A stretch of DNA of 64,000 nt from Eubacterium sp. GTDB lineage: Bacteria > Bacillota > Clostridia > Oscillospirales > Acutalibacteraceae. The stretch lies in assembly GCA_017886765.1 (NCBI GenBank), contig JAGHJI010000018.1:19369-83368 (forward strand), in the 5' to 3' direction. Positions 10,662 through 30,059 of this stretch are shown piece after piece. The position numbers and the translations under genes were made by a program. Each line of letters opens with the position of its first letter. The stretch's first letter is position 1. The notes under the pieces are model-generated. The model ran no database searches. It was not told the DNA's origin and was given only the letters and a program-made list of their open reading frames with translations.

Positions 10662-12527
<1,866 letters not shown>

Positions 12528-14142: not shown

Positions 14143-14317
14143 ATAAATCATCCGCATCCTGAACAGGCTGTTCAAGCTCGTCATTATAGTACATATCCGC
14201 CGGAATACCCGTGTAGCTGCCGTCCACATCACAGTTTACCATATCCGGACTGATATAGGATGTCAAATCAATGATTGGTTTCTTTGTCTGCTTTTTCTTA
14301 TCGTCTTTCTTTTTCAT
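14141..14317 (-). CDS. 58-aa hypothetical protein (below ORF track cutoff)
   Basis: MKKKDDKKKQTKKPIIDLTSYISPDMVNCDVDGSYTGIPADMYYNDELEQPVQDADDL*; RBS AGGGGTGA upstream on minus strand. Confidence 0.6.
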   Translation of the reverse strand: MKKKDDKKKQTKKPIIDLTSYISPDMVNCDVDGSYTGIPADMYYNDELEQPVQDADDL

Positions 14318-14362
14318 AAAAAATCACCCCTATTTATTTTATACAGGGGTGTGTTTTTTTAT

Positions 14363-14989
14363 TTATATTTTTTCAACGTCAATAACTGATATTTTTTCCA
14401 TAAATTGTTTGGGATTTATAATTTCTCCCATTTCAAAATACTCGTCCATATTCATATTAAAATTATTTACAAAAACGGGCACATGGTTATACTCCACGTC
14501 AATATGAAGGACCTCCGCGTCTGACATAACCTTTTTCGCGTCGCAGGTATGGATATCATAAAGTTTTTTTACCACGGTCTCGTTATTGCGCACGTATTCA
14601 AGAATGACATTTCTGGAGGATTTTGAGACGGAAATATACCGGATCTCCGTTTTTGAAAGCGCCAGCGCCATCGGCATTTGCGCCACTGCCTTGCAGGCTC
14701 CGGAATTGACAAAAAATTCATTGATGAAAATGGACTCCAGCTTGCTCGTATCATCCGGTACGATAATGGCAAGGATATATTTATTGAGCTTTTTGCCGTA
14801 TATCCCCTTCATAAACTCCTTAAAATAATACTGATCCTCAGCAATTTTTTCCGCAAATTCATGATAAAACGGAATATTCGGTGACGGGTTTAAGGACGGC
14901 ATATTAAAGGTTTTAAACTCATCGCTTTCCCTGTCCTTAACAAGAATGCTGTTATTTGTAATGATCATCGGAACCGTTTTGGCCATCAT
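14363..14989 (-). CDS. hypothetical protein
   Basis: Uninterrupted ORF, no strong overlapping alternative, no family recognised. Confidence 0.65.
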   Translation of the reverse strand: MMAKTVPMIITNNSILVKDRESDEFKTFNMPSLNPSPNIPFYHEFAEKIAEDQYYFKEFMKGIYGKKLNKYILAIIVPDDTSKLESIFINEFFVNSGACKAVAQMPMALALSKTEIRYISVSKSSRNVILEYVRNNETVVKKLYDIHTCDAKKVMSDAEVLHIDVEYNHVPVFVNNFNMNMDEYFEMGEIINPKQFMEKISVIDVEKI

Positions 14990-15131
14990 GTCACCTCAGT
15001 ACATTTATCTTTATTATTTTACTACATACTATTCTTTAAATCAATAAAATTTAAAATTTTAAAAAACATAGTGCAATCACTTACAATATATGGTACAATA
15101 TCATAGTGACAAATCTGAAAGGAGAGAAGCA

Positions 15132-16565
15132 GTGTCAAACCAGAATGAAATTGATGATATCCTGAACGAGCTGAAAAGAAAAAGAGAAAGCGGAAACAAT
15201 CCGCCGCAGCCTCAGAAAAAAGCGGAGGATTTCTTTTATTCATTCACTCCGCCAAAAAAAGAAGAAAGTACAATATCTGAAAAAAGTCAGATTTTTAATA
15301 TTGATTTTGATAACAATCAAAAAAAGAAAACAGAAAAAAATCTCAACAACAATTTCGATTTAATCAACGATTCATTTAACAAAGCGCCCCGGAGAGGCAA
15401 CATCCAGAATGAGATATTTACCAGCCCTCCCGATGACGGCGCTCCAAAAAACAAAAAGAAAATCGCCGTTATCGCTGTAGCGGCTGTCCTTGTCGTGGCA
15501 ATCATAGCCAGTGTGATCTTCGCGGTGGCGAAAAGCAGAAACAAGGAAGAGGAAACAACCACCACAACGACAACGACGGAAGTTTCAACCGAGGCCGCCG
15601 TTCAGGTCTTCAATCCCCTTACCGGCGAAAGCGCATATAATGAGAACGCCGTGGGCAAAAGACCCGTTGCCTGCGTAGTAGAAAACGCCTATGCGGCAAG
15701 GCCCCAGTGGGGTATTGACGACAGCAGCGCTGCTCCGGACATTATACTTGAGGGAGAGGTGGAAGGCGGAGAAACCAGAATGCTCTGGTTTTACGCGGAC
15801 TACACCGCCCTGCCTGACCAGATAGGGCCTGTGCGCAGCGCCAGACCGCCCTACATCAAATTTTCAGAGCTTTTTGACTCCATATTTATTCACTGGGGAC
15901 AGAGCGAAAGCAGGGATAACTATGTGGGCGCGGACGCGGTTTTTGAAACGGACGATGTTGACCATATCAATCAGATGGCTTTCAGCGACAGCGTAGGTCT
16001 CTTTGGCAGGGATTCGTCCAGGGGCGTATCTTCCGAACACACCGGTGTACTGTACGGCGACGCTCTTGAAGCGGCCATCAAAGAAGCCGGCTTCAGAACG
16101 GATATTGAGGAAAGCAGCTTCACGCAGTTCAGCTTTAACGAGGAAGCGGCGGCAGTAGGCACGGAAAGCTGTATGTCTTTCTCCCTTGCTTTTTCAAAAA
16201 ACACAAAAACAAGGGACTGGACTTACAGTGAAGACGATAAAATGTATCACTGCTCGGATTACCTGACAGATGTGGCAAGAACAAATCTGCTGGTACTTTA
16301 CGATGAAACCGAATATATTTCCAAGGCAAATTATAAGGGAACCGGCAATGCTGAAATTTACTGCGACTACAAGCTGTCCGGCGGAAACGGCAAGCTGGTA
16401 AGCCTCGGTACCATAACGGATATCACATGGACAGTCAGCGACGGAACACTTGTGATAAAAGGCACTGACGGAAGCGAAGTAAAGCTGAATCCCGGAAAGA
16501 CCTGGATAGGCTACGCCTCATCAAATAACGGCGGAACGGATACAAACCATACCTCCGCTGAATAA
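15132..16565 (+). CDS. DUF3048 domain-containing membrane-anchored protein (YerB-like)
   Basis: GTG start after GGAGAG; TM segment; NPLTGESAYNENAVGKRPVACVVENAYAARPQWGI...GPVRSARPPYI. Confidence 0.85.
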   Translation: MSNQNEIDDILNELKRKRESGNNPPQPQKKAEDFFYSFTPPKKEESTISEKSQIFNIDFDNNQKKKTEKNLNNNFDLINDSFNKAPRRGNIQNEIFTSPPDDGAPKNKKKIAVIAVAAVLVVAIIASVIFAVAKSRNKEEETTTTTTTTEVSTEAAVQVFNPLTGESAYNENAVGKRPVACVVENAYAARPQWGIDDSSAAPDIILEGEVEGGETRMLWFYADYTALPDQIGPVRSARPPYIKFSELFDSIFIHWGQSESRDNYVGADAVFETDDVDHINQMAFSDSVGLFGRDSSRGVSSEHTGVLYGDALEAAIKEAGFRTDIEESSFTQFSFNEEAAAVGTESCMSFSLAFSKNTKTRDWTYSEDDKMYHCSDYLTDVARTNLLVLYDETEYISKANYKGTGNAEIYCDYKLSGGNGKLVSLGTITDITWTVSDGTLVIKGTDGSEVKLNPGKTWIGYASSNNGGTDTNHTSAE

Positions 16566-16577
16566 TAAAACATTTAA

Positions 16578-16612
16578 AAACGACTCATTGTTAAATACAA
16601 CGAGTCGTTTTC
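16578..16612. terminator. bidirectional terminator
   Basis: AAACGACTCATTGTtaaatACAACGAGTCGTTTT. Confidence 0.85.
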
Positions 16613-16614
16613 TT

Positions 16615-17781
16615 TTATATATTATTCTGTTTTTCAAGATAATTGACTGTTTTTATTACTTTGCCGTCTTTTATGTAAACTCTCGGCACACGGCGGGCGA
16701 CACGGCACGGCAGCTCATAATTAAACGAATGGGCGAGCTCGGAAACCTCCTCCATTGTCAGGACAGCATTTCCTTCCCCTCCGACAAGAGTGACCTCATC
16801 CTCCGGCTTTACACCGGGTATACCTGTAATATCCACCATGAACTGGTCCATGCAGACTCTGCCGAGGATCGGCGCATACTGTCCGTTCACGATAACTCTG
16901 CCCATATTGGACAGGCATCTGGGGTAACCGTCAGCATAGCCCACCGGAATGGTGGCCACCACTGTTTCTTTTTCCGTAATATAGGTACCGCCGTAGGAAA
17001 TTTCACGTCCCGCGTCCAAAGTCTTTATATGACTGATATGCGCTTTCCACGCCATAGCCGGTTTGATATCAAGCAGAGACCTATCCACCTGGTCAGACGG
17101 ATAAAGCCCGTAGTTTACAATTCCCGAGCGGACCATATCAAAGGTCTCGTCAAACACCATGATTCCTGCTGAATTATTAAGATGCTTAACCGGGATCTCC
17201 ACATCTCTGTCAGACAGCATCGTTATGAAATTTTTAAATAATTCACGCTGCTTTTTAGCCTTTGTCAGATCGCTTTCATCTGCGGTGGCGAAATGTGAAA
17301 AAAGTCCCTCGGCAAAAACATTCGGCAGCTGCGTAATCTGTTTACAAATATCCGCGCTTTCCTCAGAAATCTGGAAACCTATACGGCTCATACCTGTATC
17401 CGCACAAAAATGGAAAGGCGCGTTTTTATGTTGTCTCACCGCTTCATCTGACAGCGCCTTTGCGGTTTCATAGGAAAAGATCGGTACACGAATATCATTT
17501 CTGACCGTTATTTCAAACTGCGACGGAGACACATATCCGAGTATAAGTATCGGTTTTCTGATACCGGCGTTTTTAAGCTCCATTGCCTCCTCAACACACG
17601 CCACGCCGAAAAAGTCGCATTTATCCTCCAGCAGCCTGCCTACCTCCACGGCTCCGTGCCCGTAAGCGTCAGCCTTGACAACGGCAAGGAGCTTTGCCCT
17701 GCCGGCAAGCTTTTTCCGCACGCTGTCTATATTGTATTCTATTGCATCCAGATCAATTTTCGCATATGTCCGCAGATACAT
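16615..17781 (-). CDS. alr: alanine racemase
   Basis: MYLRTYAKIDLDAIEYNI...LLAVVKADAYGHGAVEVG; start chosen at MYLRT (17781). Confidence 0.95.
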   Translation of the reverse strand: MYLRTYAKIDLDAIEYNIDSVRKKLAGRAKLLAVVKADAYGHGAVEVGRLLEDKCDFFGVACVEEAMELKNAGIRKPILILGYVSPSQFEITVRNDIRVPIFSYETAKALSDEAVRQHKNAPFHFCADTGMSRIGFQISEESADICKQITQLPNVFAEGLFSHFATADESDLTKAKKQRELFKNFITMLSDRDVEIPVKHLNNSAGIMVFDETFDMVRSGIVNYGLYPSDQVDRSLLDIKPAMAWKAHISHIKTLDAGREISYGGTYITEKETVVATIPVGYADGYPRCLSNMGRVIVNGQYAPILGRVCMDQFMVDITGIPGVKPEDEVTLVGGEGNAVLTMEEVSELAHSFNYELPCRVARRVPRVYIKDGKVIKTVNYLEKQNNI

Positions 17782-17857
17782 GGTTACGCCCCTTTTTCTG
17801 TACTGTATAATAAAATATATTTTAATACCGCGGAACAAAAAAGTAAAGTCAAATATA

Positions 17858-17961
17858 CAGAAAAAGAAAAGAAGACCGGAACTGTATGTCCGGTCTTCCC
17901 CTCTCTGTTATTACAAACTATGGAGGACACGAAGTGAAACGGTGCGGCCCGTTTCAAATCT
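17858..17961 (-). ncRNA. candidate sRNA or alr leader with terminator
   Basis: Minus strand TTGACA-N17-TATAAT (17991-17996 / 17968-17973), hairpin GAAACGG/CCGTTTC (17936-17955), terminator GAAGACCGGA...TCCGGTCTTC (17871-17898) then TTTTCTTTTT. Confidence 0.6.
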
Positions 17962-18106
17962 AACTATATTATAGTGTATGTTGCATAATTTGTCAATAGG
18001 AATGATGATATTTTTTATATAAAATTACAGTCAAAGGTTTTACCTCTTTGCGTAACACAAAAAATTTTTTACAGAGTAATTTTTTGGACTTATAAAATGC
18101 AGGCAA

Positions 18107-18135
18107 TTGACTTAGAACATACGTTCGTATAATAT
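18107..18135 (+). promoter_or_regulatory. promoter overlapped by LexA/DinR-type SOS box
   Basis: GAACATACGTTC (18115-18126), matching Gram-positive GAAC-N4-GTTC, between TTGACT (18107) and TATAAT/TAATAT (18128-18135). Confidence 0.6.
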
Positions 18136-18192
18136 ATAGGTTGTACGCAGGACAAACTACGTCGAATATCAAAGAGAAAGAAGGACAGCCCT

Positions 18193-18408
18193 ATGACGAT
18201 TGACGAATTAGCACATGAATACATGTCGCAGTACAAGGTCCTCTGCGCCAAAATGGACGGACTCAGACCTTTGCTATGCGTTTACAGCGGAGAAGACCTT
18301 TTACTGCTCAGAAGAAAAATAAAAATATATTATGATATGGCCTGTGACTGCAAGAGGATAGCGTCTTTGCTCACCGGCTATTACGACGGGGAGGAAGAAT
18401 ATGATTGA
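18193..18408 (+). CDS. hypothetical protein, 71 aa
   Basis: ORF with RBS, overlapping the start of the next ORF (translational coupling). Confidence 0.65.
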   Translation: MTIDELAHEYMSQYKVLCAKMDGLRPLLCVYSGEDLLLLRRKIKIYYDMACDCKRIASLLTGYYDGEEEYD

Positions 18409-18724
18409 TTTTGTAGAGGAGTATATGAGTGATAAAAGCATGCCCGATGACAACGGCTTTGACGAACAGAGAATACTAATCCGTTCCGTATCCAAGGCGC
18501 TCCCTCTTATTATCAAAAACGAGCTTACCCAGCGCCAAAGCCTTTGTCTGAGAATGTTTTATGTTTACGGTAAAAGTCAGGTAGAGATAGCTAAGGAGCT
18601 GAAGCTGTCACAGCCCACGGTGAGCAGGCATATCAAATCCGCAAAGGATATTGTAAATAAATTTCTTGCTTACAGCTTTTATTCGGTAAAACAGGCAAAT
18701 GAACAGTGGCTCAGGCTTGAATAG
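18401..18724 (+). CDS. sigma-70 region-4-like HTH protein
   Basis: LTQRQSLCLRMFYVYGKSQVEIAKELKLSQPTVSRHIKSAKDIVNKFL. Confidence 0.75.
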   Translation: MIDFVEEYMSDKSMPDDNGFDEQRILIRSVSKALPLIIKNELTQRQSLCLRMFYVYGKSQVEIAKELKLSQPTVSRHIKSAKDIVNKFLAYSFYSVKQANEQWLRLE

Positions 18725-18903
18725 CCCCGCGCCACTGTTCTATAGTACACAACGCAGAAAGCATAGGATTCAATGCGCTGCGTACTTTACCACAATTGAT
18801 ACAGCAACGGCTATTTTATAGGATTGCTCCACCGTTGCCAACAATTGAAAACGCACCTCTTGAATAACAAGGCTAATCACCCTTTATTCTATGAGGTGCG
18901 TTT
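18701..18903. other. four consecutive stem-loops
   Basis: GAACAGTGGC/GCCACTGTTC; CGCAG-GCAT/ATGC-CTGCG; CAATTG-GCAACGG/CCGTTGC-CAATTG; AAACGCACCTC/GAGGTGCGTTT. Confidence 0.7.
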
Positions 18904-18942
18904 GATTTTTGTTAAAGCTAAATACGTGTCCCTGCAAAGACG

Positions 18943-19701
18943 TTATGCAATGACAAAAGAAATGAGAAACAGAATAACATACAACACCGGCTGGTGCGCA
19001 AGATATACCCAAAGGCTGTTTTTCCCCACAAAGGATAAAAAAGCGCTGTGCTTCCTGTACATCATTTCAGGCAGCTTTTCATCAGCGGCGAGCTTACCTA
19101 TGAAATACCCCAGGAAAAACATAAATATCCACGGAATAACGGCAAAATAATCTGCGCTGTAAAAGCTTGAGCTATGCAGTCCCAGAGGCGCAAGGAAATC
19201 ATACTGATACCAGCTTTCAGGGAGCGTGATAAGGCCGAAACACAGCCCTCCTATCTCTATATCGTAAAAGAAAAGGAAAAGTAACAGGGAAACAACGGCG
19301 CCGATCTTATAATTAATTTTTTTCAAAACAGGCATAAAAAGCCCTGTCACGATCATACATACGCCCAGGCAGTGCAGAATACCGAAATAAATTTCTGCGC
19401 CGGTAAAACCAAGCAGGGGCATAAGCACCGCTGTTACCAGAGTAACCGCGCAGCCGCAGGCAAGCACGATTACGCCTCTTTTAACAGCGTTTCTGGAAAG
19501 TCTCGAACACATTCCGGAAATAAGAATAAACGCTGCCCAGAATACCGGCTGAACGATACACAGGGCGTCAAACACCTCATATCCCCAGGAAAAGCCCAGT
19601 ACGTCACCGATATCCAGAAACGTATGGTGAATGACCATACAGATAATGGCAAACCCCCTGATTTCATCAAGCATATGAATACGTCTTTTATCTTCACGCA
19701 T
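18943..19701 (-). CDS. heparan-alpha-glucosaminide N-acetyltransferase-like (DUF1624) membrane protein
   Basis: MLDEIRGFAIICMVIHHTFLD at N-terminus; multiple TM helices. Confidence 0.75.
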   Translation of the reverse strand: MREDKRRIHMLDEIRGFAIICMVIHHTFLDIGDVLGFSWGYEVFDALCIVQPVFWAAFILISGMCSRLSRNAVKRGVIVLACGCAVTLVTAVLMPLLGFTGAEIYFGILHCLGVCMIVTGLFMPVLKKINYKIGAVVSLLLFLFFYDIEIGGLCFGLITLPESWYQYDFLAPLGLHSSSFYSADYFAVIPWIFMFFLGYFIGKLAADEKLPEMMYRKHSAFLSFVGKNSLWVYLAHQPVLYVILFLISFVIA

Positions 19702-19777
19702 TTTGCCGGCACCCTTTCTGTTAATTTGTTATATTGTACCACAATTGTTTTATATTGTATATAACAAAAAAATATGA

Positions 19778-19841
19778 TATAATAGCCTAACGAAACATCG
19801 GCAAAATCAGAAGTTCTGATTGTTTCAGAGAACATTGTATC
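19778..19841 (+). repeat. 64-bp promoter/hairpin repeat, copy A
   Basis: TATAATAGCCTAACGAAAC...GTTTCAGAGAACATTGTATC; 53/64 identical to copy B, 52/64 to copy C. Confidence 0.85.
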
Positions 19842-19860
19842 ATCAGTTTGAGGTATTGTT

Positions 19861-20250
19861 ATGAAAGAATTTTCACAAAAACTAAACAGCAAAGCCACCG
19901 CTACAGTCAGCGGAGAAAATACTGCGGCAGCGGTGAAATCCGGTTCTCTTGACGTGTTCGCAACCCCGATGATGCTGGCGCTTATGGAGGAGGCAACATG
20001 TCTTGCCTGCGCGCCGCTCCTTGACGAGGGGGAAACGACAGTGGGTACGGGCGTCAGTATTTCCCATGACAAGGCAAGCGGTCTCGGCACGGTGATAACG
20101 GCTTGCGCCACCCTGGAAAAATCGGAAGGCAGGAAACTGACCTTTTCCGTATATGCAGAGGACGACAAGGGAGATCGGATCGGAAAGGGCACCATTGAAA
20201 GATTTGTTGTGCTTGCTGATAAATTTATGAAAAGAGTAAACGGCGTATGA
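19861..20250 (+). CDS. thioesterase family protein (FlK-like hotdog fold)
   Basis: SGSLDVFATPMMLALMEEATCLA...TVGTGVSISHDKASGLG. Confidence 0.85.
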   Translation: MKEFSQKLNSKATATVSGENTAAAVKSGSLDVFATPMMLALMEEATCLACAPLLDEGETTVGTGVSISHDKASGLGTVITACATLEKSEGRKLTFSVYAEDDKGDRIGKGTIERFVVLADKFMKRVNGV

Positions 20251-21422
20251 GATACAGTGCGGTAATTTTTGATTTTGACGGAACGATATGCGATACCGGC
20301 GAAGGCATACTGAAAAGCGCGAAATACGCGCTGGAGGCTTTCGGTTACGACGCGCCCGATTATGAGGAGCTGACCTGTTTTATCGGTCCCCCGCTGCTGA
20401 TAACCTTCCAGGAAAAATTCGGTGCGGATGCGGCAACGGCAGATGAGCTTGTGAGAAAATTCCGTGAACGCTATACCAACAAAGGTGTGTTTGAAAGCAA
20501 GCTTTACGACGGAGTAAAAGAACTGCTGATAACGCTGAAAAAGGACAATATTAAAATCGGTATCGCCTCCTCCAAGCCACAGGATTATATTGAGACACTG
20601 CTTGACCATTTCGGAATCAAGTCTTATTTTGACGTCATCTGCGGCGTATCCTTTACCGCGGACTGCGAGTCCAAGGCAAGCATTATTGCCCGCTGCCAAA
20701 AGGAGCTTGACACAGCCGGCAATCTCTGCCTGATGGTGGGGGACAAGAAATATGACATGGAGGGAGCAAAGGCAAACCTGATTGATTCCGCCGGCGTATT
20801 ATGGGGCTACGGCACAAAATTTGAGCACATCGAGGCGGGAGCAAAATTTATTCTTGAAAAAGTGGACGATGTGGAAGCCATTGCGCTGGGATTTTACGAA
20901 CAGACGGAAGAAACACAGGGCATTTTCAGCGGTAAAATTATCAGCGTGCATACCGACACGGTTACGCTGGTGGATGGAACGGAGGCCCAGCGCGAGGTGG
21001 TGGACCACCCGGGCGGCGTAGCAGTCGTAGGCCTTACTGAAAATAACGAGGTACTGATGGTAAGGCAGTTTCGGTATCCGTATAAAGAAATCATTTATGA
21101 AATCCCTGCCGGCAAGCTTGAAAAAGGCGAGGATATACGCCAGGCGGGCATCCGTGAATTCCATGAGGAATGCGGCGCCGAAGCCCAGAATTTCGAGGCG
21201 CTGGGTGAAATCTATCCTACGCCAGGATATTGCAGTGAGATCATACATCTTTTCTACGCAACCGATTTAACATTTACCCAGCAGGAACTGGATGATGACG
21301 AATATCTTGACGTTATTAAGATGCCCTTGGGCGAATGTGTTGCCAAGATCATGAGCGGTGAAATAAAGGACGCTAAAACCATCGTGGGCATACTCAAATT
21401 AAAGGAACTGAAAAAATTATGA
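20247..21422 (+). CDS. HAD-family phosphatase fused to Nudix hydrolase (ADP-ribose pyrophosphatase-like)
   Basis: HAD motif FDFDGTICDTG at N-terminus; C-terminal Nudix box GKLEKGEDIRQAGIREFHEECGA. Confidence 0.9.
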   Translation: MRYSAVIFDFDGTICDTGEGILKSAKYALEAFGYDAPDYEELTCFIGPPLLITFQEKFGADAATADELVRKFRERYTNKGVFESKLYDGVKELLITLKKDNIKIGIASSKPQDYIETLLDHFGIKSYFDVICGVSFTADCESKASIIARCQKELDTAGNLCLMVGDKKYDMEGAKANLIDSAGVLWGYGTKFEHIEAGAKFILEKVDDVEAIALGFYEQTEETQGIFSGKIISVHTDTVTLVDGTEAQREVVDHPGGVAVVGLTENNEVLMVRQFRYPYKEIIYEIPAGKLEKGEDIRQAGIREFHEECGAEAQNFEALGEIYPTPGYCSEIIHLFYATDLTFTQQELDDDEYLDVIKMPLGECVAKIMSGEIKDAKTIVGILKLKELKKL

Positions 21423-22573
21423 CGGCTTATTTCGACAATTCGGCAACTACCAGGCCCTGCCGTGAAACGATCAGCGCCGTAATGGATATGCTGGAAAACA
21501 ACTGGGGGAATCCCTCAAGCCTTCACAATCCGGGGATACACGCAATGAAAGAGATCATCGCCTCCAGAGCCGTTATTGCTGATTCACTGGGCGCGGACCG
21601 GGAGGAAATCATTTTTACTTCCGGCGGAACGGAGGCAAACAATCTGGCTCTTTTCGGCGCAGTAAAGGCGAGAAAAAGACTGGGCAACAGAATCGTTACC
21701 ACGGCAATCGAGCATGAGAGCGTTCTGCAATCTGCCCAGGAGCTTGAAAAGCAGGGTTTTGAAGTCATATATCTTAAGCCGGACAAGTACGGCAATATAA
21801 CGAAAGAACAGCTTTTTGAAGCGGTGAACAGCGACACGATTCTTGTTTCCATGATGTATATCAACAATGAGGTCGGCTCTGTAATGCCGGTGGAAGCAAT
21901 AAAAAGAGCGGTAAAAAAAGCGAACTCTCCAGCCCTTATTCATATAGACTGCGTACAGGCATACGGTAAAGTTGCCATAAATGCGAAAAAAATCGGAGCG
22001 GACCTGATCACCGTATCGGCGCATAAAGTGCACGGACCCAAAGGGACGGGCGCGCTTTATATAAACAAAGACGCCAATCTGACAAAGCAGAATTTTGCCG
22101 TTGTCTTCGGCGGTGAGCAGGAGAAAAAAATACGTCCGGGAACGGAGTGTTCCCCTCTCATTGCGGGCTTCGCGGCGGCGGTCAGAGCCTTTGCGCCCCT
22201 GCAGGAACAGAAAAGCCATATAAAAGAGCTGAACCGATACGCAAGGGAGAGACTCGGTCAGATCAACGGGATAAAATTCAATAATGACGTCCAGGCGTCG
22301 CCGTATATAATAAATATGTATATCCCCACTTTTATGCGAAGTCAGACGGTTATACAAGAGCTCAGCAGCGAATATAATATATACGTCAGCAGCGGCTCCG
22401 CCTGCGCCAAAGGCAAAAAAAGTCACGTGCTGACAGCAATGGGACTGGACAGCGAAATCATTGACAAAAGCATCAGAATAAGCTTTTGCAGAAATAATAC
22501 AAAAGAAGAAATCGACTATTTAACGGATGCATTAAAGAATTTGATTGAAAAACATCCGGCGGAGAAAATATGA
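21419..22573 (+). CDS. cysteine desulfurase
   Basis: MTAYFDNSATTRP...FTSGGTEANNLA...SAHKVHGPKGTGALY...SSGSACAKG. Confidence 0.95.
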   Translation: MTAYFDNSATTRPCRETISAVMDMLENNWGNPSSLHNPGIHAMKEIIASRAVIADSLGADREEIIFTSGGTEANNLALFGAVKARKRLGNRIVTTAIEHESVLQSAQELEKQGFEVIYLKPDKYGNITKEQLFEAVNSDTILVSMMYINNEVGSVMPVEAIKRAVKKANSPALIHIDCVQAYGKVAINAKKIGADLITVSAHKVHGPKGTGALYINKDANLTKQNFAVVFGGEQEKKIRPGTECSPLIAGFAAAVRAFAPLQEQKSHIKELNRYARERLGQINGIKFNNDVQASPYIINMYIPTFMRSQTVIQELSSEYNIYVSSGSACAKGKKSHVLTAMGLDSEIIDKSIRISFCRNNTKEEIDYLTDALKNLIEKHPAEKI

Positions 22574-24902: not shown

Positions 24903-25087
24903 GTTTTGTACCGCTCAGCGAAATAAAAAGACACCGGATAAAACCGAGGTGCTATAACGAAGTTTTATAATTAAATAAATACGACATAATGCATGTAACC
25001 CACTTTACTGCTTTCAATGATTTGATAATAGTAAAGTGGATTATTTTGATATTGAAAAACAAATTTCTTTATGATAAAATATAACTG

Positions 25088-25201
25088 CCAAACAAATTAA
25101 ATAAATGTATCACTTGATAAGTGTGTCTTTTTATCTTTTGATAAAAAATGCATGCTCTTATTTCACATGCTTATTTAGTGATGCGTGTTTAATTTGTTTG
25201 G
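25088..25201. repeat. long-range inverted repeat in leader of inserted gene
   Basis: CCAAACAAATTAAA (25088-25101) and TTTAATTTGTTTGG (25188-25201), plus ATCACT/AGTGAT inside. Confidence 0.75.
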
Positions 25202-25226
25202 CGACAGTTGAGCTATGCGTTTTTTG

Positions 25227-25257
25227 GCGTACGGCTTTGCTGTACGCATTTTTTATT
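25227..25257 (+). terminator. terminator-like hairpin just upstream of RBS
   Basis: GCGTACgGCtttGCtGTACGC then ATTTTTTATT. Confidence 0.65.
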
Positions 25258-25272
25258 ATAAGGAGAAAAAAG

Positions 25273-26346
25273 ATGAAAGAGAAATTATTAATAATCGTAT
25301 TTTCTATAATTGTTGTTATATCAATTATAATAGTAATGGTTTTAGCTAACCGGCAAAGCGAAAATTCAACTGAATCTGCTTCTGGTGATAGTTTGAGCTA
25401 TGATTATTCAGAAGAAAATAACGAAAATGATTATACCGATTATTATGAGGAAGAAACTACTCAAGCAATTAAACTTAGTGATAGTTGTGATAAGATTTTT
25501 GCAACGGGAACTGATGAAAATGGTAATTTCTACGAACTTGTTGCCAATCAAGAAGAGACATATGATAATGTTAAAATTGAAATAGGTGTTATAAAAAACA
25601 ATAAATGGTTATTAGAACCAACATCTGATATACCATTTATAGATGAAGAAACAGGCTTGATAAAAGCGGGAAATTCTACTTTTGGAATAGATGATGTGTT
25701 AATTAATGATTATGAATTTGATAATGTTTACGGCACTTTTAAATATGTTGCCGACGGTTGTTTTTGCATTTGTAAAGGAAAACAAAAAAACAGAAGTGCA
25801 ACCGGAGCTTCTCAATGCACAATAATATATAATGCGGAAAATAAAAAAGCTTATTATAATAACGGTGAACCGTATCTTCGTTATGATGAAGAATCGAATT
25901 TTGTTTTAGTTGATTTAGACAAAGAAGCTAAACACGGAAACCACCTATTGATTCAACATCGATATTCTATCGGCGGTCTTCCCTTTGAAGAATTTAGAAG
26001 TGATTTCTATGTCCTTGATACCAATACAATGAAAACAAAGATGATTGTTGAAGGTACGGAATATAATATTGTTGCTCCGATAGGTGATGGCTTATTTGCA
26101 GTTGGTGATTCACTTTACAGTAATACGGTTGGCAATGCGATTATGTATTTTTATGATTTAGAAGGTAATGAAGTTATTGATTTAACGTCTTATAATGATG
26201 GTGAGGTATATAGCGCTGGTGAATCGTACTTTGTTGATGAAAAATTTACATTTTTGGCTGAAAACGATGCTGGAACAGAGTTTCAAGTTACTATTGATAC
26301 AAAAGGAAAGGTTATTAGTAGTGTCGAAAAATTAAAACAAAATTAA
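25273..26346 (+). CDS. hypothetical membrane-anchored protein
   Basis: ATG after AAGGAG; N-terminal hydrophobic helix MKEKLLIIVFSIIVVISIIIVMVLANRQ; no family recognised. Confidence 0.8.
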   Translation: MKEKLLIIVFSIIVVISIIIVMVLANRQSENSTESASGDSLSYDYSEENNENDYTDYYEEETTQAIKLSDSCDKIFATGTDENGNFYELVANQEETYDNVKIEIGVIKNNKWLLEPTSDIPFIDEETGLIKAGNSTFGIDDVLINDYEFDNVYGTFKYVADGCFCICKGKQKNRSATGASQCTIIYNAENKKAYYNNGEPYLRYDEESNFVLVDLDKEAKHGNHLLIQHRYSIGGLPFEEFRSDFYVLDTNTMKTKMIVEGTEYNIVAPIGDGLFAVGDSLYSNTVGNAIMYFYDLEGNEVIDLTSYNDGEVYSAGESYFVDEKFTFLAENDAGTEFQVTIDTKGKVISSVEKLKQN

Positions 26347-26404
26347 ACTAAAACATATTTATATTAGCTATATTATACCGACTTAAGATAACATAAAATA
26401 TTTA

Positions 26405-26445
26405 ACCCACTATGACACTTTCAAGTGAAAGATGTCATAGTGGGT
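26405..26445 (+). terminator. strong stem-loop after inserted gene
   Basis: ACCCACTATGACA CTTTCaagtGAAAG a TGTCATAGTGGGT. Confidence 0.65.
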
Positions 26446-26548
26446 CTTGTTACATTTATATTTTTTGTAGAAATACCTTTTATGCAACACTTCTTTACAG
26501 CACGTCAGCTAAAATCCGGTGTCTTTTTTATTCCAATCAATATAATAT

Positions 26549-30025: not shown

Positions 30026-30059
30026 GAAAAAAGACATCGGAACTGTCCGGTGTCTTTTT
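30026..30059 (+). terminator. intrinsic terminator
   Basis: AAAAAAGACAtCGGAactgTCCGgTGTCTTTTTT. Confidence 0.85.

Follow-up and report, generated by a model that had tools for sequence, protein, structure and literature searches.

The 64,000-nucleotide stretch of DNA analysed here (hereafter the window) carries, within the loop of a transcription terminator, a single-gene insert that is very probably a non-autonomous cassette of a Tn4451/TndX-type element, bounded by half attachment sites of a TndX/TnpX-type large serine recombinase. Direct support comes from the anatomy of the insert, its recurrence, its specificity for terminators, the empty sites in relatives, the exchange of cargo between copies and the linkage of its ends to recombinase genes. 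Profile searches of the sole open reading frame of the window copy found no recombinase domain, and on its gene content we file it as a non-autonomous derivative, not itself a member of the Tn4451/TndX type.

Anatomy of the insert and its target site

The element (A24943 to T26510) splits the terminator AAAAAGACACCGG/CCGGTGTCTTTTT, which lies between two convergent genes, and has a GC content of 0.302 (vs 0.469 and 0.449, respectively, over 5 kb up- and downstream). The initial annotation had described an AT-rich insert with one open reading frame and near-inverted ends, flanked on either side by TAAAA and by complementary arms (24925-24938 and 26515-26528); all of these were recovered at the positions it gave, and the terminator that it used for comparison (30026-30059) is present and includes one U-G pair in the stem. 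The features are as follows.

24925-24938, plus strand: left arm of the split bidirectional terminator, AAAAAGACACCGGA; perfect complement of 26515-26528; ends the upstream convergent gene
24939-24942, unstranded: left copy of the terminator loop, TAAA, with the duplicated core AA/AAA (a 2-bp core being suggested by the family)
24943-26510, unstranded: entire insert, 1,568 bp, GC 0.302; boundaries placed by aligning family ends
24943-24966, plus strand: left terminal inverted repeat and presumed half attachment site, type B, ACCGAGGTGCTATAACGAAGTTTT
24998-25042, plus strand: left subterminal hairpin AACCCACTTTACTG...AGTAAAGTGGATT, from folding; presumably the element's own terminator, replacing the broken one
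25052-25080, plus strand: promoter-like TTGAAA - 17 nt - TAAAAT, conserved upstream of the leader RNA in ~30 related leaders
25087-25254, plus strand: conserved, structured leader RNA with its own terminator, outside Rfam
25273-26346, plus strand: cargo gene, 357 aa, with an N-terminal hydrophobic anchor (read from sequence) and no known domain
26405-26446, plus strand: right subterminal hairpin ACCCACTATGACA...TGTCATAGTGGGT, presumed cargo terminator, with counterparts in G007, G010, G038 and G070
26485-26510, minus strand: right terminal inverted repeat and presumed half attachment site, type B, AGCTGACGTGCTGTAAAGAAGTGTT; from aligned family ends
26511-26514, unstranded: right copy of the terminator loop, AAAA
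26515-26528, plus strand: right arm of the split terminator, TCCGGTGTCTTTTT

Alignment with the ends of related copies shifted the boundaries. C26509, previously taken for an extra base outside the right repeat, loses that status, as the family end AGCTGAGGTGCNRTAACGAAGTNTT puts T26510 inside the element; the left end of the window element (ACCGAGG...) is one base short in comparison with the same family end. Likewise, the duplication of the target was upheld but its proposed length of 5 bp was replaced, after the alignment, by a 2-bp core (AA/TT) at the loop centre, which best fits the family. In the window copy alone, AA/AAA within the A-run is indistinguishable from a TAAAA repeat, and since the core lies in this run and both reconstructions of the target (CACCGGAT-AAAA-ATCCGGTG and CACCGGA-TAAAA-TCCGGTG) fold as terminators, its repeat may have either length. 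The left-type hairpin recurs at both ends of a sister copy in genome G007, and the cargo protein of the window element was assigned no function by Pfam or NCBIfam profiles.

In four relatives (G003, G028, G076 and G073) a single intact terminator, lacking the insert, stands between the same two convergent genes. The G007 sister element, found in another species (protein 62% identical, DNA 77%), occupies a different split terminator, the arms of which (AAGCAGTACG and CGTACTGCTT) are unrelated to those in the window. In G069, the ortholog of the window's upstream gene ends at C19:11894 and is followed ~25 bp on (at 11920) by a different cassette, which carries an acyl-CoA-ligase-like gene, so independent insertions have made use of this kind of place. 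These empty sites, the second copy and the varied cargo sustain the non-autonomous mobile cassette in a terminator loop that had been proposed from the window alone; the two outcomes named beforehand as contradicting it (no empty site, no further copy of the terminal inverted repeat) did not occur. The window's own genome holds a single complete copy, and a search of phage records with the window element returned nothing.

The cassette family, its cargo and its RNAs

Judged by its ends, the window element is a member of a multi-copy family that is nearly restricted to the genus. The search of relatives for these ends, which the initial annotation had put forward, recovered type A (the sister type, GGGGCGTCCGTCATAAAGAAGGT) in 43 of the 80 genus genomes at <=3 mismatches, with up to ~43 matches per genome, and type B (the window type, AGCTGAGGTGCNRTAACGAAGTNTT) in 34 of the 80 at <=1 mismatch, the weaker matches within these limits including chance hits. 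Outside the genus, type-A ends are present in few genomes (7 of 398 in a family-wide sample), and the named records bearing them are gut and rumen Ruminococcaceae/Oscillospiraceae assemblies.

From the type-A set we extracted 40 complete elements, which range from 125 bp to 6.2 kb. Pairing between the flanks of true partners (mean 10.4) exceeds that in all of 20,000 partner permutations (maximum 6.65), and the arrangement is therefore beyond chance; a left A-run together with a right T-run is present in 32 of the 40. Of the earlier wording that terminators are either targeted or tolerated, the comparison upholds targeting and speaks against mere tolerance. The possibility that the inverted arms form part of the element was rejected, since they vary among copies and pair best with their own partner. 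Next to the fourth G of the end, most type-A elements have AA or TT, and an identical dinucleotide is found at both ends in 23 of the 40 (18% expected by chance), while 17 have no matching dinucleotide on both sides; the repeat thus resembles a 2-bp core placed centrally in a loop of ~4 bases. Type-B ends also bound miniature elements, several of them within split terminators (e.g. AAAACCACGAAC-GATT-GTTCGTGGTTTT), and some type-B copies lie beside a terminator and not inside it (L325, L330 and L332 are outside or beside). Family members of 88-277 bp have the hallmarks of MITEs (short, non-coding, inverted repeats, many copies).

Two further observations concern individual loci. The right flank of L130 and the left flank of L132 contain extra end-like fragments (GGGCGCCCC and GGGGTATCCC) between arm and element, which look like footprints of earlier insertions into the same terminator. 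In L163 and L200 (G043), the GGCTGAGTTAACTCAGCC hairpin located just within the type-A end harbours an IS3-like element; this element was considered as the mover and discarded because its ends differ.

Other copies of the family carry different genes. The cargoes comprise an ArsP-type permease gene with one for an ArsR-like regulator, a pair of HIT and HAD genes (present in two species, in different terminators) and a Fic protein, together with several that were read from sequence, namely an ABC transporter with a two-component system, acyl-CoA-ligase-like and metallophosphoesterase-like genes, secreted proteins and zinc-ribbon proteins; Pfam profiles were applied to ArsP, HIT (slightly under the cut-off) and Fic, the ArsR-like and HAD genes being likewise read from sequence. 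The recombinase gene is absent from these cargo-bearing cassettes. A 4-kb cassette at L328 (G033:C10) encodes, as read from sequence, a family-4-like glycosidase, a family-43-like glycosidase and an AraC-like regulator, and might possibly be a portable sugar-use unit.

The leader RNA of the window element (25087-25254) is preceded by promoter-like sequence (consensus TTGAC...TGMTAAAAT upstream of ~30 related leaders), and the cargo gene's ribosome-binding site comes after it. It matched no Rfam family at or above the gathering threshold. Its variable stem pairs within molecules (8.1 vs a permuted maximum of 4.6, 38 sequences), and double changes occur at 20 of the 32 modelled pairs. A covariance model located it in many cassettes, not all, and it is also found outside recognisable cassettes; a query with the whole window element matched 58 of the 80 genomes, nearly all of the matches listed falling on the leader. 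The leader presumably controls expression, given its place before the gene. Considered by itself, this leader (window 25040-25280, with the near-invariant TGTTTGGCGACAGTT and a terminator before the start codon) is a multi-copy, undescribed RNA that stands ahead of varied genes genus-wide (homologues at L011-L045, L096, L102, L106-L110, L117, L122, L126 and L127), and three copies are clustered at G073:C2:284530-285118 (10-25 bases between matches) and at G032:C60:23396-24354.

A second RNA is associated with the type-A elements: Gut-1 (RF01706), published as an orphan gut-metagenome RNA (PMC2864571), lies beside or directly inside the left end GGGAGARCCTTCRTAAAGAAGGTTCTCCC of terminator-lodged copies in 17 of the best 30 matches (loci L020, L022, L055, L060, L075, L079, L108, L110 and L294-L317). 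The window element differs from these copies in having no Gut-1 RNA.

Recombinase-bearing relatives, mechanism and rival explanations

The ends of the window copy align with those of related elements that encode recombinases. In L339, a 555-aa recombinase (Resolvase, PF00239; Recombinase, PF07508; zinc-ribbon, PF13408; DUF4368, PF14287) ends ~50 bp from a type-B end, and L356 and L357 begin within the same recombinase 3' end; in L152, the 80 bp after a 547-aa recombinase are 84-97% identical to the end of type-A miniature elements. The L328 cassette starts with 127 bp at 94% identity to the L339 end, including a remnant of the recombinase gene, which links this cassette directly to a recombinase element. 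TnpV (PF14198) is located at the opposite end of recombinase elements, where the left end of the G007 sister finds its match (34 bp, 91%), and TnpV with a truncated recombinase marks L273 as a deletion derivative. Large serine recombinases are encoded in L339, L347 and L353 (39% identity to annotated TndX), and TnpV and mobilisation genes are spread across related elements, none of which is assembled complete (TnpV in L340, a relaxase in L353, Mob_Pre in L347). On the question, raised in the initial annotation, of whether fuller copies encode a transposase, the enzyme encoded by them is a large serine recombinase and not a DDE transposase.

Some recombinase elements also occupy split terminators. 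The sequence of G033 contig C4 (reverse) is AAAAAACGGAACACTTT[TT]-end and that of C17 is end-[TT]GAAGTGTTCCGTTTTT; for C6 (reverse) it is AAAAAATCCTAATTCA[TA]-end, and for C11 it is end-[TA]CGAATTAGGATTTTTG. As the arms are exactly complementary within each pair (C4/C17 and C6/C11), each pair probably represents one recombinase element in one terminator, with its ends on separate contigs and the join unassembled. A third G033 copy (L339) sits at a gene start and not in a terminator. In Pusillibacter faecalis an element lies between AAAACAGGGGTGAAGC[TT] and [TT]ATGCTTCACCCCTGTTTT, with ATAAGGAAGTA in both ends and arms of 17 bp (<=14 in 50 shuffles). The 2-bp repeat at the ends is accordingly TT and TA in the two G033 elements, TT in Pusillibacter and AA/TT in most type-A copies. 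Two DUF4368 elements on Klebsiella and Bacillus plasmids have no split-terminator arms, so the terminator habit is not universal in the DUF4368 clade; among further plasmid DUF4368 elements examined for split terminators, one only was positive. Locus L363 (Klebsiella pneumoniae pD610-HI2, 14147-21650) is a Tn4451-like element carrying aac(6')-aph(2'') on an IncHI2 plasmid, with genes for TnpV, TnpW, a plasmid recombination protein and a DUF4368 recombinase, and no split terminator was found in its surroundings.

In the window's genome, a draft, we found no recombinase gene with such an end, and neither of its two Resolvase-family genes has such an end within the fetched stretches; a profile search of G006, G017 and G044, drafts with many type-A ends, gave no Resolvase match, and a partial recombinase was later found at a type-B-like end in G017. 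All the assemblies are drafts, which can lose repeats, and the absence of a recombinase from a genome is thus weak evidence.

Under the reading that we favour, the window copy would be moved in trans by a recombinase from fuller relatives, which would circularise the cassette so that its inverted ends meet around the 2-bp core. The putative circular intermediate would then be joined to another dyad with a matching core, namely the loop of an intrinsic terminator, whose layout (A-run, GC arm, AA/TT, GC arm, T-run) would provide two inverted half sites; the outcome would be a cassette between the arms of a split terminator, with 2 bp repeated. The terminators of convergent genes may offer a nearly harmless landing place, and the cassette would supply a promoter, a leader RNA, a gene and terminators. 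More broadly, it is about as likely as not that the multi-targeting TndX/DUF4368 recombinases evolved to read intrinsic terminators as attachment sites, and that in these gut bacteria this has produced a system of gene cassettes lodged in terminators throughout the genome, many of them sharing a regulatory leader RNA, which would work in the manner of a dispersed integron.

Selection could in principle account for the positions, if insertion were untargeted and only copies in intergenic terminators survived: such sites are harmless, and a few copies do lie elsewhere (at a gene start in L339, and outside or beside a terminator in L325, L330 and L332). The position at the loop centre, with both arms kept, is however far more exact than survival demands, and in human cells, which impose no selection on terminators, a related recombinase favours A-rich, AA, T-rich sites (PMC10083194); this explanation is quite improbable. 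We regard as very improbable a palindrome-preferring DDE transposase (cf. IS1397/ISKpn1 in REP loops, or the IS30 type), for which the loop repeat would be a classical target duplication; terminal inverted repeats, miniature copies and palindromic targets are compatible with it, and several IS families are documented to target REP loops (PMC1525189), but the enzymes encoded by elements with these ends are serine recombinases, most DDE families make repeats longer than 2 bp, and of eight genomes searched, mostly ones with abundant type-A ends, none yielded DDE_Tnp_1 and two only yielded rve, as an IS3-like element with other ends.

An integron-like process, in which a tyrosine or other recombinase exchanges single-stranded hairpins between the cassette junction and a terminator, would suit the hairpin form shared by the joined ends (e.g. 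CTTCTTTATGACGGACGCCC-CAAG-GGGCGTCCGTCATAAAGAAG) with the target, and the cargo of one or few genes per cassette. Yet no cassette arrays were seen, the loci read showed no integron integrase or attC site, and double-stranded serine recombination with a 2-bp core fits the same data and has its gene adjoining the ends, so that we consider such a process highly unlikely. Finally, the single complete copy in the window's genome might suggest that no mobile element is involved and that duplicated terminators came to enclose a gene which originated or degenerated on the spot; the sister copy in an unrelated terminator, the empty sites in relatives and the cargo exchanged among many copies refute this, and its probability is close to nil.

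Comparison with known systems

Tn4451-type elements have a 2-bp target of low specificity (PMC3158075, PMC5704250), TnpX likewise using a 2-bp target (PMC3158075), and the DUF4368 clade is multi-targeting, with Cp36 favouring a site composed of an A-rich stretch, an AA core and a T-rich stretch (PMC10083194). This preference has the layout of an intrinsic terminator; terminators and palindromes are nowhere mentioned in PMC10083194, which states no biological meaning for the motif, and a clade now used in genome engineering would thereby gain a natural target. The family described here would furthermore represent a safe-harbour strategy built on a transcription signal found at most operons, and an abundant system of mobile gene cassettes among uncultured bacteria of the rumen and gut, in which many copies of the orphan Gut-1 RNA may be explained as parts of mobile elements.

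With Tn4451, Tn4453 and Tn6104-type elements (TnpX, TnpV, MobL) the family shares the recombinase domains, TnpV and relaxase of its full relatives and the 2-bp repeat at the ends (PMC3158075, PMC5704250), but it differs from them in targeting terminator loops, in having clear inverted-repeat ends and in that most copies are non-autonomous cassettes or miniatures without a recombinase. The Cp36 clade (DUF4368, TndX-like) has in common with it the DUF4368 domain and the relaxed A-rich, AA core, T-rich targeting (PMC10083194), whereas it departs from the clade as published in its native targets, which are terminators, and in its many non-autonomous cassettes. A functional analogue is found in IS1397 and ISKpn1 (IS3 family) in REP loops, and in IS621 (IS110 family) in REPs, which also take a repeated extragenic palindrome as target (PMC1525189); they belong to other enzyme classes, and the targets here are terminators of many sequences and not one repeat family. 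Bacterial MITEs (RUP, BOX, SPRITE and others) are matched by the short non-autonomous inverted-repeat copies (88-277 bp here), with the differences that these stem from a serine-recombinase element and not from an IS, and that many copies hold one to several complete genes (the window copy, being protein-coding, is not a MITE). Lastly, integron gene cassettes are similarly small mobile gene units of varied functions that depend on a recombinase made elsewhere; in contrast to them, neither an array nor an integron platform came to light in the loci read, and each cassette of this family has two inverted ends, dispersed terminator targets and its own promoter and terminator.
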